Source of the DNA: an uncultured Burkholderiales bacterium
GTDB lineage: Bacteria > Pseudomonadota > Gammaproteobacteria > Burkholderiales > Burkholderiaceae_C
DNA: 64,000 nt
NCBI GenBank assembly: GCA_903830725.1
Contig: CAIKVH010000065.1
Span: 62,001-126,000 of the forward strand
Direction: 5' to 3'
Shown here: in pieces, positions 52,175 through 57,765 of the stretch
Numbering within the stretch: the first letter of the stretch is position 1
Layout: each line of letters opens with the position of its first letter
Program-made: the position numbers and the translations under genes
The notes under the pieces: model-generated
Database searches by the model: none
Seen by the model: only the letters and a program-made list of their open reading frames with translations
What the model was told of the DNA's origin: nothing

Positions 52175-52585
52175 CTAAGCGAAGAGTCTTTGGTGTTCAA
52201 TTTTGATACATAAATCTTGTATCACTTTCAGCCCCTTTGATTCAGCTAGTTGGCAAGAAGCAGCGTCCTCTAACCCCAGTTGCATCCAAATGGCTTGCGT
52301 CCTTATTTGGATGCTCTCGTTGACCAGTTCTGGAATGTGTTCAGGGGCGCGAAAGCAGTCAACCATATCAACTTTCACTGGAATATCTCCCAGGCTTGGA
52401 TAGCACTTTTGCCCCAAAATGCTATCAATCACTGGGTTAACGGGAATGACGGTGTAGCCTTGTTCGATTAAATATTTAGCCACACTGTGGCTCGGTCTGG
52501 CTTCATTTGCAGATATGCCAACCACTGCAATGGTCTTGGTGGACTTTAAGAGCTCACGGATGAAAGAGTCGGAGTATCTGAGCAT
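52175..52585 (-). CDS. CoA-binding domain protein
   Basis: A 136-residue single-domain Rossmann protein of the CoA-binding (YccU-like) family. TIAVVGISANEARPSHSVAKYL (about 17-38, spanning the cofactor loop), YTVIPVNPV (near 45-53) and CFRAPEHIPELV are family marks; the HAQAIWMQLG-like segment RTQAIWMQLGLED follows. Start taken as ATG at 52585, which fits the family length; a frame from TTG at 52666 would add 27 atypical residues. No strong ribosome site (the upstream sequence is C-rich on this strand). Function unknown. Convergent with the SDR gene, 5-base gap. Confidence 0.85.
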   Translation of the reverse strand: MLRYSDSFIRELLKSTKTIAVVGISANEARPSHSVAKYLIEQGYTVIPVNPVIDSILGQKCYPSLGDIPVKVDMVDCFRAPEHIPELVNESIQIRTQAIWMQLGLEDAASCQLAESKGLKVIQDLCIKIEHQRLFA

Positions 52586-52849
52586 AAACGGGGGGGGTCT
52601 CAAGAGGCGCTTTAAAAGCGAAATGTTTACGGATATTTTGGGTGAGGTAAGACGCGAAAACTTCAATTGTTTGATAATTTACTCGTTATGTACAAGATAT
52701 TTTCAACTATATTTATACTTCCCTGCAAATTGCTTCGGTTTTAGGGGCTTGCTTTTTTGAATTTATACCCCAAATAAAGGGAGCAAATAAGTGAACGAAT
52801 GGGTTGTAAAAGTGAGTCAGAGCTACGATCTTCAATGGGGAATTTTGAG

Positions 52850-54391
52850 ATGAAAAGTTTAACGAAATCACGTCCAGCAAAATGGTTTGTTAGTGGCGCT
52901 GCTGTTGCCGTATTTATGATGGTTTGCGCCCAGCCGTGGAGCGGCTCTGCGATGCGAGCCCAGGCCCAGTCAACGGTTTCTAAAGATAACTCGGGTGCAG
53001 TGAGAAGCTTGCCCGACTTTACCGATTTGGTAGATCAGGTGGGCCCATCTGTTGTCAACATTAGAACCCTAGAGCGGATCCAAAAACCTGCCGCGTCCAC
53101 GGGTGATCAAGATGATGAGATGCAAGAATTATTCAAAAGGTTCTTTGGCATACCCATTCCGAATATGCCCCCAGGTCAAGGCGCGCCTGGAGCGCCGAAG
53201 ACGCCTAAACCAAGAGGTGCTCCACGAGGTGAGGAGGAGCAACCCAGAGGGGTGGGTTCAGGTTTTATTTTGAGCAGTGATGGCTATATCATGACCAACG
53301 CACATGTGGTGGATGAGTCGGTCAAGGTTATCGTGACTCTACCCGATAAACGCGAATTCAAGGCAAAGATTGTCGGTGTTGATCGCCGCACAGACGTTGC
53401 AGTGGTAAAGATCGACGCCTCTAATTTGCCTTCTGTAAAAATTGGTGACGTTTCTAAATTACGCGTTGGCGAATGGGTTATGGCTATTGGCTCTCCCTTT
53501 GGACTGGATAACAGTGTGACCGCCGGCATTGTGAGTGCTAAGCAGCGCGATACGGGTGAGTTCTTGCCTTTTATTCAAACCGATGTTGCCATCAATCCTG
53601 GTAATTCCGGTGGGCCGTTGATAAATATGCGCGGCGAAGTGGTCGGCATTAACAGTCAGATTTATTCTAGATCTGGGGGATACATGGGAATTTCTTTTTC
53701 TATCCCCATTGATGAAGCCATTAGAGTTAGCGATCAACTAAGAGCAAGTGGGCGTGTTCAAAGGGGCCGCCTGGGGGTTCAAATCGATCAAGTTAGTAAG
53801 GAAGTGGCTGATAACCTGGGGTTAGGTAAAACGCAAGGTGCGTTGGTCCGAGGTGTTGAGACCAACTCTCCCGCTGAGAAGGCGGGCGTTGAGGCGGGTG
53901 ACATCATCGTCCGTTTTGAGGGAAAGAGTATTGAAAAGTTTGCTGACCTGCCCCGTATTGTTGGCAATACCAAGCCCGGTACCAAAGGTGTTTTAACGGT
54001 CTTTAGGCGCGGTGCGTATAAAGATCTCACCGTTGTTGTGGGAGAGTTTGAGAAAGAGGCGGTTGCAGAAGATAAGGATGACTCCAACGACAAACCAGCC
54101 AAACTCGCGAGTTACCCCGCCTTTGGACTGTCGTTGTCTGAGCTGAGTGATGCGCAAAAGAAGGAGCTAAAAATCAAAGGCGGTGTAAGAGTGGAGTCCG
54201 CAACCGAGGCTGCTGCGACGGCGGGACTGCGAGAAGGGGATGTCATCATTACAGTTGCAAACGTAGAGATTACAAATCTCAAATCATTCGATGCGGTTGC
54301 CAGTCGCCTTGACAAGACTAAACCTGTTAGTCTTTTGATTCGACGAGGAGCCTGGGCTCAGTACACTTTGATTCGCCCTGTTGCGAAGTAA
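52850..54391 (+). CDS. degQ: Periplasmic Do-family serine protease (DegQ/MucD)
   Basis: Envelope quality-control protease, 513 residues from ATG 52850 (an ATG at 52835 is also possible). A signal peptide (about 1-40) precedes the trypsin-like domain with triad H152 (TNAHVV), D182 (RRTDVAVV) and S253 (GNSGGPL). Two PDZ domains follow (about 305-400 and 420-510). A Gly/Pro/Arg-rich loop occupies about 100-135. In many betaproteobacteria this gene closes an rpoE-rseA-rseB-mucD operon before lepA; those regulators are absent upstream here. Confidence 0.95.
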   Translation: MKSLTKSRPAKWFVSGAAVAVFMMVCAQPWSGSAMRAQAQSTVSKDNSGAVRSLPDFTDLVDQVGPSVVNIRTLERIQKPAASTGDQDDEMQELFKRFFGIPIPNMPPGQGAPGAPKTPKPRGAPRGEEEQPRGVGSGFILSSDGYIMTNAHVVDESVKVIVTLPDKREFKAKIVGVDRRTDVAVVKIDASNLPSVKIGDVSKLRVGEWVMAIGSPFGLDNSVTAGIVSAKQRDTGEFLPFIQTDVAINPGNSGGPLINMRGEVVGINSQIYSRSGGYMGISFSIPIDEAIRVSDQLRASGRVQRGRLGVQIDQVSKEVADNLGLGKTQGALVRGVETNSPAEKAGVEAGDIIVRFEGKSIEKFADLPRIVGNTKPGTKGVLTVFRRGAYKDLTVVVGEFEKEAVAEDKDDSNDKPAKLASYPAFGLSLSELSDAQKKELKIKGGVRVESATEAAATAGLREGDVIITVANVEITNLKSFDAVASRLDKTKPVSLLIRRGAWAQYTLIRPVAK

Positions 54392-54562
54392 AGACTAACT
54401 GAGTGCTCTGTAGGGTTGCAAATTCTGGGGTGTGCTGGCTAACAATACGGGATACCCCGGGATTTCAATTTGAGCCAAGCACCCATCCCAAGTTTTTGCG
54501 CCAAACAAACCCCTCTAAATTATTAGGTTTTTGTAAAAAAACCAAATATCTAAAATAAATAT

Positions 54563-54592
54563 AAAGTAAGTGCACACTCACTTATTTTTACA
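54563..54592 (+). terminator. Possible terminator downstream of degQ
   Basis: Arms AAAGTAAGTG (54563-54572) and CACTTATTTT (54579-54588) pair at 9 of 10 positions around a 6-base loop and run into TTTTTA. The stem is AT-rich and therefore weak. It lies about 170 bases after the degQ stop. Confidence 0.5.
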
Positions 54593-54769
54593 TTTGTATC
54601 GGATTTTGAGTAAAATGGGCCCTAGAAATATGAACTTTGAGTGACTTCGTTGACTTTGAAATATCAAATGCAAGTAAAAATTACCAATTTTGTAACACTC
54701 CACAGAGTTCCCACATCTTGTCCAAAGGATCCTCACTTATTATGTGAATAAACTGTTAATAAAATTCGT

Positions 54770-54910
54770 GTTGCGGGACGACAACGAGCCGTTGTAACCG
54801 GAGTTGGGGCTGTACAGAAGGCTGAATATGCCTACAATGAAGCTTCCAGCTATCGCAGTTGCCATAGATTGTTGGTTCCGGGCGCGTCATCACCTGACGC
54901 GCCCTTTTTT
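54770..54910 (+). ncRNA. Candidate small RNA or lepA leader ending in a terminator
   Basis: About 140 bases with several local hairpins: ACAAC/GTTGT (54781-54795), AGGC/GCCT (54819-54832) and the closing terminator stem. CCGGA near 54798 can pair with TCCGG near 54876. A 37-codon reading frame (54828-54941) with AGAAGG six bases upstream runs through the terminator and could alternatively be a leader peptide. I do not match it to a known RNA family. The 5' end is a guess. Confidence 0.35.
54880..54910 (+). terminator. Strong rho-independent terminator before lepA
   Basis: GGGCGCGTCA (54880-54889) and TGACGCGCCC (54895-54904), a perfect 10-bp GC-rich stem with a 5-base loop, followed by six T. 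The lepA ATG is 43 bases further on. Confidence 0.9.
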
Positions 54911-54953
54911 ATGTCTCTCTCTTTTAAATTCAAATACTTAAACGTGTCCGTTG

Positions 54954-56765
54954 ATGAACCACATCAGAAACTTTTCGATCATAGCTCACATAGATCATGG
55001 TAAATCAACTCTTGCAGATCGGTTAATCCAACGCTGCGGGGGCCTAAGCGAGAGAGAGATGGAGGAGCAAGTTTTAGACTCCATGGATATAGAAAAAGAG
55101 CGTGGGATAACTATCAAAGCTCAAACAGCTTCGCTCAGGTACAAGGCCCTAGATGGGCAGATATATTCATTCAATCTCATTGATACCCCTGGTCATGTGG
55201 ACTTCTCCTACGAAGTCTCAAGATCACTCAGCGCTTGTGAGGGTGCACTGCTCGTGGTTGATGCGAGTCAAGGCGTTGAGGCGCAAACTGTAGCGAATTG
55301 TTATACAGCGCTTGATTTGGGAGTGGAAGTTGTTCCCGTCTTAAACAAGATGGACTTACCGCAAGCAGATCCTGATAACGCCAAATCCGAGATTGAAGAC
55401 GTCATTGGTATCGACGCAACGGATGCGATTCCTTGCTCAGCCAAAACCGGAATGGGAATAGATGAGATCTTAGAGGCAATCGTACACAAGATACCCCCGC
55501 CAAGAGGTAACCCAGATGGGCCCTTGCGGGCGATGATTATTGACAGTTGGTTTGATACCTATGTCGGTGTGGTCATGCTGGTTCGTGTGGTTGATGGGCG
55601 CCTAGCCAAGGGTGAGCGAATCAAGCTGATGGCAACAGGGGCCACTTACAACGCAGATAATTTGGGTGTATTTACCCCTGCCAATCAACCCCGAGAGGCT
55701 TTAGAGGCAGGTGATGTCGGCTATATTATTGCCGGCATTAAAGAGCTTCAAGCGGCAAAGGTGGGAGATACGGTTACTTTAATTAAGCCAGGCACTGGAG
55801 GTGCAAGTGCTACAGCAACTCAGGCCTTACCAGGGTTTAAGGAAATTCAACCCCAGGTGTTTGCTGGGCTGTATCCCACAGAGGCGAATCAATATGATTC
55901 ACTCAGAGATGCACTGGAAAAATTAGAGCTCAATGATTCCTCACTGAGGTACGAGCCCGAGGTATCTCAAGCTCTAGGCTTTGGGTTTAGGTGTGGATTC
56001 TTAGGTCTGCTGCACATGGAGATTGTGCAAGAGCGCTTGGAGCGAGAGTTTGATCAAGACCTGATCACGACCGCACCCAGTGTGGTCTACCAAGTTGTTA
56101 AAGGTGACGGCGAATTGATGATGGTTGAAAATCCATCCAAAATGCCGGAGCAGGGAAAGCTACAAGAAATCAGAGAGCCCATCGTGACCGTGCATCTGTA
56201 TATGCCACAAGAATATGTGGGTGCGGTGATGACGCTTGCAAACCAAAAGCGGGGCGTTCAAATGAATATGGCTTATCACGGGCGCCAGGTCATGCTGACC
56301 TATGAGATGCCCTTGGGGGAGATTGTTCTAGATTTCTTTGATAAGTTGAAATCCGTGAGCCGCGGTTATGCCTCAATGGATTATGAATTTAAAGAGTACC
56401 GGGCCTCTGACGTGGTTAAGGTTGATATATTACTTAACGGCGAGAAGGTGGATGCATTATCAATCATAGTGCACCGCTCGCAGTCACAATACCGGGGACG
56501 GGCGGTGGTTGCAAAAATGCGGGAAATCATCAGCAGACAAATGTTTGATGTAGCGATTCAAGCCGCCATAGGTGCAAACATCATCGCGCGTGAATCAATT
56601 AAAGCTTTAAGAAAGAACGTCTTGGCAAAATGCTACGGTGGAGACATAAGTCGCAAGAGAAAACTACTTGAGAAACAAAAGGCAGGAAAAAAGCGAATGA
56701 AGCAAATCGGATCTGTAGAAGTCCCCCAAGAGGCATTCTTGGCTATTTTGCAAGTAGAGGATTAA
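54954..56765 (+). CDS. lepA: Elongation factor 4 (LepA)
   Basis: Ribosome-associated GTPase acting on initiation/back-translocation, 603 residues. G1 [13 protein letters not shown] (near 12-24), [15 protein letters not shown] (near 76-90), NKMD (near 130) and SAKTG are present, and the LepA-specific C-terminal domain carries [20 protein letters not shown]. The ATG at 54954 gives the conserved [16 protein letters not shown]; a TTG one codon earlier is an alternative. First gene of the run lepA-lepB-rnc-era-recO-pdxJ-acpS-nagZ. Confidence 0.98.
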
Positions 56766-56766
56766 G

Positions 56767-57765
56767 ATGATGTCATTTATTACGGCCTGTGTACTGGGCG
56801 CGTTTGCAACTTACATTGGGAGTTGGTATCTGGGATACACGGAAGGGAACTTTGCATTACTGCTTTTCCTGGCAAGCGTAGTGACAGGCATTTATTGGCT
56901 CGCAGAGCAGTACTACTTCTTACCGATGCGTCTGAAAAATGTACAAGAACAACAAGAACAAGAGCATTCACGCGATACCCAATTGCGAAATCTAGGGATT
57001 ACGCCGCAGGAAACGGACAGAAGTGCAGCGCATGAGGAAATGGCTCGACAACCCTGGTGGTTAGACTGGACAGCGGGTCTGTTTCCCGTGATTGTGATGG
57101 TTTTTTTGTTGAGATCGTTTTTATTTGAACCATTCAAAATCCCCTCAGGCTCGATGATCCCGACTCTGTTGGTGGGGGATTTGATTTTGGTGAATAAATT
57201 TCATTACGGCGTCAGGTTGCCCGTCATCAACACCAAGATTACAGACGGTACCCCAGTCGAGCGCGGAGATGTAATGGTGTTTAGGTTCCCGCCTAAACCA
57301 ACGCTTGACTACATAAAGCGCGTGATAGGCGTGCCAGGGGATGAGGTTTCGTATTTAAATAAACAACTAAAAATCAATGGTGTACCGGTCCCCAAAAAAG
57401 AGTTGCCTGAATTTTTCGAAGAAGAAAGCCTGCGTTATATAAAGCAGTTCTCTGAGGATTTGCCGCTCAGCCATGATCAACAACCGACATCTACGCTTAA
57501 AACACATCCTTTGCTCAATGAGGATGAGCGTCCTGCGTTTGTGGCGGGTGCTGATAACTTCAAATACAAAGAGCTTTGCAGTTATAGTGTCGAAGGATTT
57601 ATCTGTAAAGTACCCAAGGGACACTACTTTATGATGGGAGACAACCGGGATAACTCCTTGGACTCTAGGTATTGGGGCTTTGTTCCTGATGAAAATATTG
57701 TGGGCAAGGCTATTTTTGTGTGGATGAATTTTGGTAGTCTAAGGCGTATTGGTAGCATTAATTAA
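56767..57765 (+). CDS. lepB: Signal peptidase I
   Basis: Inner-membrane Ser/Lys protease removing signal peptides. 332 residues. Membrane segments lie at about 4-20, 25-45 and 100-120; the catalytic Ser is S129 in IPSGSMIPTL and the Lys is K184 in DYIKRVIGVPGD. Box E GDNRDNSLDSRYWGFV lies near 292-307. It starts one base after the lepA stop and overlaps rnc by one base (TAATG), so translation is likely coupled. Confidence 0.96.
   Translation: MMSFITACVLGAFATYIGSWYLGYTEGNFALLLFLASVVTGIYWLAEQYYFLPMRLKNVQEQQEQEHSRDTQLRNLGITPQETDRSAAHEEMARQPWWLDWTAGLFPVIVMVFLLRSFLFEPFKIPSGSMIPTLLVGDLILVNKFHYGVRLPVINTKITDGTPVERGDVMVFRFPPKPTLDYIKRVIGVPGDEVSYLNKQLKINGVPVPKKELPEFFEEESLRYIKQFSEDLPLSHDQQPTSTLKTHPLLNEDERPAFVAGADNFKYKELCSYSVEGFICKVPKGHYFMMGDNRDNSLDSRYWGFVPDENIVGKAIFVWMNFGSLRRIGSIN

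Follow-up and report, generated by a model that had tools for sequence, protein, structure and literature searches.

The DNA between a protease gene and lepA in an uncultured Burkholderiales bacterium likely carries a genuine small-RNA gene that is family-wide and apparently undescribed. Judging from comparisons of sequence, the trans-acting RNA encoded at positions 54833–54910 of the window (the whole 64,000-nucleotide stretch analysed here) probably represses the translation starts of lysine-rich nucleoid proteins. Because the loop of this RNA exactly matches the starts of histone-like genes, the RNA probably switches off DNA-packing proteins. The window is part of one of the 144 contigs of the source genome, and its relatives point to Burkholderiales, close to Comamonadaceae. 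The features of the locus are as follows.

52799–54391, plus strand: degQ/mucD-type protease gene, the upstream neighbour, with Trypsin_2 and PDZ domains
54743–54751, plus strand: DnaA-box-like 9-mer 1 (TGTGAATAA), first of a tandem pair
54754–54762, plus strand: DnaA-box-like 9-mer 2 (TGTTAATAA), two bases after the first
54770–54785, no strand assigned: dyad GTTGC-N6-(G)CAAC, candidate regulator site upstream of the promoter
54833–54838, plus strand: −10 promoter box TACAAT, a sigma-70-type match
About 54845–54910, plus strand: predicted small RNA of ~66 nt, with the 5′ end placed from the −10 box and the 3′ end from the T-run, on the basis of alignments and a covariance model
54846–54875, plus strand: hairpin 1, arms at 54846–54850 (CCAGC) and 54871–54875 (GTTGG)
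54855–54865, plus strand: seed loop GCAGTTGCCAT, complementary to the 11-base start of the proposed target genes
54880–54910, plus strand: intrinsic terminator, a 10-bp stem and T6
54954–56765, plus strand: lepA, the downstream neighbour, with LepA_C and GTP_EFTU domains and its ATG at 54954

The name degQ/mucD for the upstream gene is our assumption from general knowledge, and the domains fit it.

Structure and distribution of the small-RNA gene

With a promoter and an intrinsic terminator both present, the element has the appearance of a discrete gene. The preliminary description of this DNA had reported a GC-rich 10-bp terminator with a T6 tail 43 bases before lepA, and we found exactly this: the stem at 54880–54904 consists of 10 pairs, 8 of them G–C, closed by a 5-nt loop, T6 extends to 54910, and 43 bases separate the T-run from the lepA ATG at 54954. 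In the small RNA, a U-run stands after the terminator. The terminator has the longest stem among the 8 terminator-like sites in 52500–57500, an interval whose shuffles contain a mean of 4.9 such sites of any quality. The several hairpins described earlier stand in part. The 184-nt segment (−57.8 kcal/mol, z −2.4) folds better than 196 of 200 shuffles, the other four folding at least as well, but some of the apparent structure consists of DNA signals, such as the conserved dyad at 54770–54785 ahead of the promoter, and only after the −10 box would the conserved RNA begin. The 72-nt element by itself has a folding z of −3.9.

The two-helix structure pairs in 96.1% of the cells in 68 sequences. 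Changes on both sides were found at four pairs, three of them in hairpin 1, a result equalled by 1 of 500 shuffles; in hairpin 1, C–G becomes U–A, both sides changing, in 3 of the 68 sequences, and A–U becomes G–U in two. With so little variation in the sequence, the covariation is modest. When seven diverse members were folded, the terminator was retained and the seed fell within or next to the upper portion of hairpin 1. RNAalifold, given a full alignment that misplaces the Roseateles-type rows, returned a short hairpin CAAC:GUUG instead of hairpin 1, covering part of the loop; a competing fold that hides part of the loop is possible.

A nucleotide search of 61 genomes detected the segment in its own genome, in 32 of the 36 other genomes of the genus and in none of the 24 outside the genus, with most matches in the genus beginning at 54829–54831, just 5′ of the −10 box. 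A LepA search of named genomes gave 571 lepA loci, of which the best 80 were used (Ramlibacter, Variovorax, Acidovorax, Limnohabitans, Polaromonas, Comamonas, Delftia, Roseateles, Rubrivivax and others). Adding the loci from the genus brought the readable lepA-upstream stretches to 110, in which some genomes are counted twice; two loci with an unreadable upstream region (L034 and L010) were left out. The core CAGTTGCC followed by a T-run is present in 101 of the 110 stretches. Among the elements of these 101 loci, 81 are distinct, and their alignment columns are on average 77% identical. The loop GCAGUUGCC / GCAGTTGCC is invariant in all 81, and so are CCA in hairpin 1 and most bases of the terminator, so that conservation extends past the terminator stem.

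We ran a covariance model, R1, on 300 genomes of the order and separately on a family-wide draw of 299 genomes. The family draw gave matches in 269 of the 299 genomes at E up to 0.001. In the order-wide draw, 9 family genomes were among the matches listed (E up to 7e-11), all beside lepA, and 42 of the 291 genomes outside the family had weak matches (E 4e-6 to 0.01); the latter were rejected as homologues, since none of the 21 fetched adjoins lepA or carries the loop where the model matches. The source genome itself holds one good copy of the gene, and one query for similar DNA in plasmids returned nothing.

The earlier suggestion of an unannotated small RNA is supported by a block that is conserved from the −10 box to the terminator across the family and matches no Rfam family. 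In the covariance search of Rfam, nothing reached the gathering score for the element. The 'toxic sRNA' family (RF02278) had no covariance-model match in the window at E up to 10. A weak match to ncS025 (Burkholderia sRNA 25, RF02869) spans the whole model including the terminator, scoring 15.9 bits (E 2.9) where the gathering score is 46, and the element was not accepted as a member. No description of the RNA was found in the full-text literature on lepA-linked small RNAs, on small RNAs of Burkholderiales, Comamonadaceae and Variovorax, on DnaA boxes with small RNAs or under the sequence itself, most subscription papers lying outside that scope. The 37-codon frame that had been noted as reading through the terminator does exist, starting at the ATG at 54828, but an ATG is found there in 2 of 94 distinct relatives, and the frame was rejected as functional because its start codon is not conserved.

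Complementarity to the starts of histone-like genes

The loop is fully complementary to AUGGCAACUGC, the 11 bases with which the coding sequences of lysine-rich histone-like genes open; it is the reverse complement of ATGGCAACTGC, which covers the start codon and codons 2–4. The target was found post hoc, starting from a weak reverse-strand match in the source genome (E 0.3) that coincides exactly with the start of the gene encoding a 146-aa SWIB-domain protein. This protein has an HC2-like lysine-rich tail, with an HC2 score under the cut-off, and the SWIB/HC2 protein has a match in all 60 family genomes searched. Among 30 fetched loci, 29 SWIB genes start with exactly ATGGCAACTGC, and the remaining one (L176) ends at a contig edge and was left out, its genome (G352) being omitted from the tree described below. 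Another 26 loci from the family draw added 21 genomes with a strong small-RNA match, all 21 having the same start. Altogether, ATGGCAACTGC stands at the SWIB start in 50 of 50 genomes with a strong small-RNA match (E up to 1e-8) and a readable gene, in 7 of the 12 examined with a weak match (E 1e-8 to 1e-3), in 8 of 19 family genomes with no match, and in 1 of 10 relatives from the order outside the family with a readable standalone SWIB gene (L223). For these counts, 20 listed genomes among the 30 of the family without a model match were followed, together with 12 of the weak ones; left out were G382 and G370, for which no standalone gene turned up, G396, where the SWIB domain was seen only in a long frame, and G475, as were L215 and L224–L227 outside the family, where the start is unreadable. 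Long open frames (about 800–1100 codons) with a SWIB-like domain also occur in many family genomes (L205–L212) and are possibly topoisomerase–SWIB fusions.

The same 11 bases recur at other genes. In 15 genomes, ATGGCAACTGC was counted 105 times, some of these on the reverse strand of the small-RNA gene itself, compared with 13 for the reversed control, and most of the other sites, being within genes or on the wrong strand, have no meaning. An H1-like gene with this start was found in all 15 genomes, each of which also has it at the SWIB start; the H1-like genes were read from hits of the pattern itself, and therefore their presence in every genome counts as evidence and their codons do not. 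The H1-like protein of the source genome matches Pfam HC2 at 111 bits, and the copy of one relative (L373) reached no Pfam family. Thirteen of the 15 proteins share a WPFP end, and the other two are cut by the fetched stretch. The H1-like (HC2) gene (L163 1500–2123, own-genome C132), which starts with ATGGCAACTGC, lies just 3′ of what appears by eye to be a ribonucleotide reductase small-subunit gene. Five HU-like starts in four genomes (one Pfam-tested) also carry ATGGCAACTGC, and so do pilC-like genes of two genera (L391 and L430, one Pfam-tested), which are unrelated to histones. Predicted duplexes between the small RNA and its targets have energies of −28 to −38 kcal/mol in nine pairs, compared with shuffled means of −16 to −21, although in two of the nine (G338 and G373) the best of 200 shuffles beats the real duplex. 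On these comparisons, the RNA appears to carry a conserved seed complementary to the translation-initiation regions of its targets, and the predicted antisense targeting of histone gene starts is well supported.

The strongest single result is a silent freeze that ends where the complementarity ends, with relatedness held constant. In the 50 SWIB genes, codon 2 is always GCA and codon 3 always ACT; codon 4 can be GCA, GCG, GCC or GCT, and there is variation among the lysine codons. Elsewhere in these genes, T is the last base of 5.4% of Thr codons and A that of 16.5% of Ala codons, and the ATGGCAACTGC start is kept at up to 73% local G+C. A tree was built from 960 bases of lepA, and the 31 loop-bearing rows compared on it were those in which the 11 bases are intact. 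The third base changed zero times at codons 2 and 3, at least 9 times at codon 4 and at least 12 times at codon 7; the loop-bearing but altered G376, which was omitted, would contribute a single change, at codon 2.

Co-occurrence of loop and target is less decisive. The start sequence is present in 51 of 53 genomes with the loop at lepA, compared with 15 of 29 genomes without it. Among the 53, the loop was read directly in G376, G401, G402 and 31 of the 50 strong genomes and taken from the model score in the other 19; G376 and G401 have an altered target despite the loop. Plain Fisher tests give p 2.7e-6 by genome and 7e-7 to 2e-5 by genus, values that overstate the link, since related genomes are not independent samples. 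On the lepA tree the loop has 8 changes of state, and only five independent pairs lie on well-supported branches; among these, the start sequence changed in the same direction in 2–3 and in the opposite direction in 0–1. With phylogeny considered, the association was not significant (median p 0.5 for the pairs; p 0.12 in a rate test), and no compensatory change of loop and target was seen among 30 weak or negative genomes. Six more loop-less genomes (reached via L053, L075, L079, L081, L088 and L095) stand outside the Fisher tests, G398 among them being probably the same genome as G458; two keep the start sequence and four do not.

Because 15 of 29 loop-less genomes keep ATGGCAACTGC, some other constraint, or inertia and slow decay, must also preserve it. 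The RNA could then be real but have another main target or a protein ligand, with ATGGCAACTGC kept for efficient translation starts and the complementarity coincidental. Codons 4–6 likewise lean to A near the SWIB start, and by our estimate any 9-mer is expected to match over some gene start about 0.3 times per genome. Against this explanation, two four-fold sites are completely frozen and the next one shows no freeze, and H1-like, SWIB, HU-like and pilC-like genes share the same 11-base start, making it, in our view, unlikely.

Upstream signals and the relation to lepA

A TA(C/G/A)AAT box stands at the −10 place in 101 of 101 core-bearing loci, where its third base, the one informative position because the others were fixed by the search string, is C in 97% of 94 distinct loci. 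Upstream of the box, conservation is patchy, with signals that recur at fixed spacing. In 52 of 93 distinct loci, the tandem TGTKNATAA-N2-TGTKNATAA lies at −96/−95, counted from where the −10 box ends, and none of 50 base shuffles has it; relaxed DnaA-like boxes occur in 84 of the 93 upstream stretches compared with 0 of 97 control stretches inside lepA, the base composition of which differs. We label these sites DnaA boxes on a consensus that we take to be TTATCCACA, and they are putative by sequence. The dyad is present in 59 of the 93 loci, with 55 occurrences at −69, where base shuffles average 0.08 loci. It may be the binding site of some regulator, and DnaA control of the promoter is a lead suggested by the boxes. 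None of the 29 loop-less genomes has a DnaA-like box or the dyad in the 260 bases before lepA (85 bases read for G498), and in G376 the loop is present and the boxes are absent.

The preliminary description had also proposed a leader that attenuates the run from lepA to nagZ. Transcripts from the promoter at 54833 would mostly stop at the terminator, and regulated read-through would set expression of the lepA operon. The T-run does end 42–46 bases 5′ of the lepA ATG in 68 of 99 loci, and 24 of the 29 loop-less genomes have a −10-like string and 9 have a terminator-like end by a strict pattern within the same 260 bases. The other core-bearing loci, however, range from about 0 (L098) to about 155 bases from lepA, the Roseateles/Rubrivivax-type ones mostly near 100, and an attenuator leaves the invariant loop antisense to histone starts unexplained. 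By inspection, the aligned element holds no conserved anti-terminator, nothing conserved that could pair with the terminator arm GGGCGCGUC, and no mutually exclusive anti-terminator structure was seen, the seven folded members keeping the terminator. Attenuation is unsupported because no complement to GGGCGCGUC was seen and the upstream signals are fixed relative to the −10 box, and we give it rather a small chance of being correct, although some read-through into lepA may occur. It is scarcely credible that the region is only a conserved degQ–lepA terminator with no separate transcription, since the terminator is conserved together with a −10 box, the fixed-spacing dyad and tandem boxes and an invariant loop, for which a terminator has no need.

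In some loop-less genomes (the L312–L341 set), a terminator stands at lepA with a different hairpin between it and the −10-like string, which suggests a degenerated or different RNA there.

A probable mechanism and related small RNAs

We know of no regulator of the lysine-rich H1-like and SWIB proteins of Burkholderiales, and a full-text search on these proteins yielded none. In the mechanism we favour, translational repression by a trans-acting RNA, the region 54833–54910 would be transcribed from its own promoter to its own terminator, giving an RNA of about 66 nt. Its loop GCAGUUGCCA(U) would pair with the start codon and codons 2–4 of nucleoid-protein mRNAs, namely those of the SWIB/HC2 protein and the H1-like histone, with HU-type proteins as further targets in some genomes. 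With the AUG paired in this way, the 30S ribosome would be barred and translation repressed. Hfq might assist the pairing, and the promoter might be under DnaA and/or a dyad-binding factor.

The nearest working model is IhtA of Chlamydia, which the small RNA might resemble in its action, by anatomy and with no claim of homology. IhtA represses the histone HctA, pairing through its loop 1 with CAUGGCG at −1 to +6 across the hctA start, and controls a second gene; the target ORF is 100% conserved between species over its first 31 nt (PMC4355289). Both are terminator-ended RNAs with a loop complementary over the AUG of a histone-like mRNA and more than one target. IhtA, however, belongs to another phylum, has three stem-loops and targets HctA, whereas the targets here are H1-like, SWIB and HU-like and the complementarity is 11 rather than 7 nt, running downstream from the AUG. 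S17 of Bordetella pertussis is likewise a conserved Burkholderiales small RNA with a terminator and a short form of 67 nt, and acts at ribosome binding sites; the S17 locus lies between a glycosyltransferase gene and coq7, unlike the lepA locus here, and the short form is made by RNase E, with pairing sites at the 5′ end and the first loop (PMC11722255).

If the predicted action is correct, a family-wide small RNA acting on several histone-like start codons would offer a single handle on bacterial chromatin composition and would be an independent parallel to IhtA. Tentatively, we further consider a replication-linked chromatin switch possible, in which DnaA on the tandem boxes drives or represses the small RNA and so sets the translation of H1-like, SWIB/HC2 and HU-type proteins together. 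Such a switch, if real, would couple the start of replication to DNA packing across a free-living family of freshwater and soil bacteria, and, with DnaA-box-like repeats at a fixed place in the promoter, culturable relatives would allow a replication–chromatin link to be tested directly.

Other elements were seen around the gene. In the gap between terminator and lepA (54911–54953), a block AATTCAAnCACTTAA is kept in many relatives and may be a promoter or translation element of lepA, the ATG of which is preceded by no clear Shine–Dalgarno sequence. On the other side, an A+T-rich inverted repeat noted by eye at 54565–54595 (TAAGTG ... CACTTA, then T5) could terminate degQ transcription.
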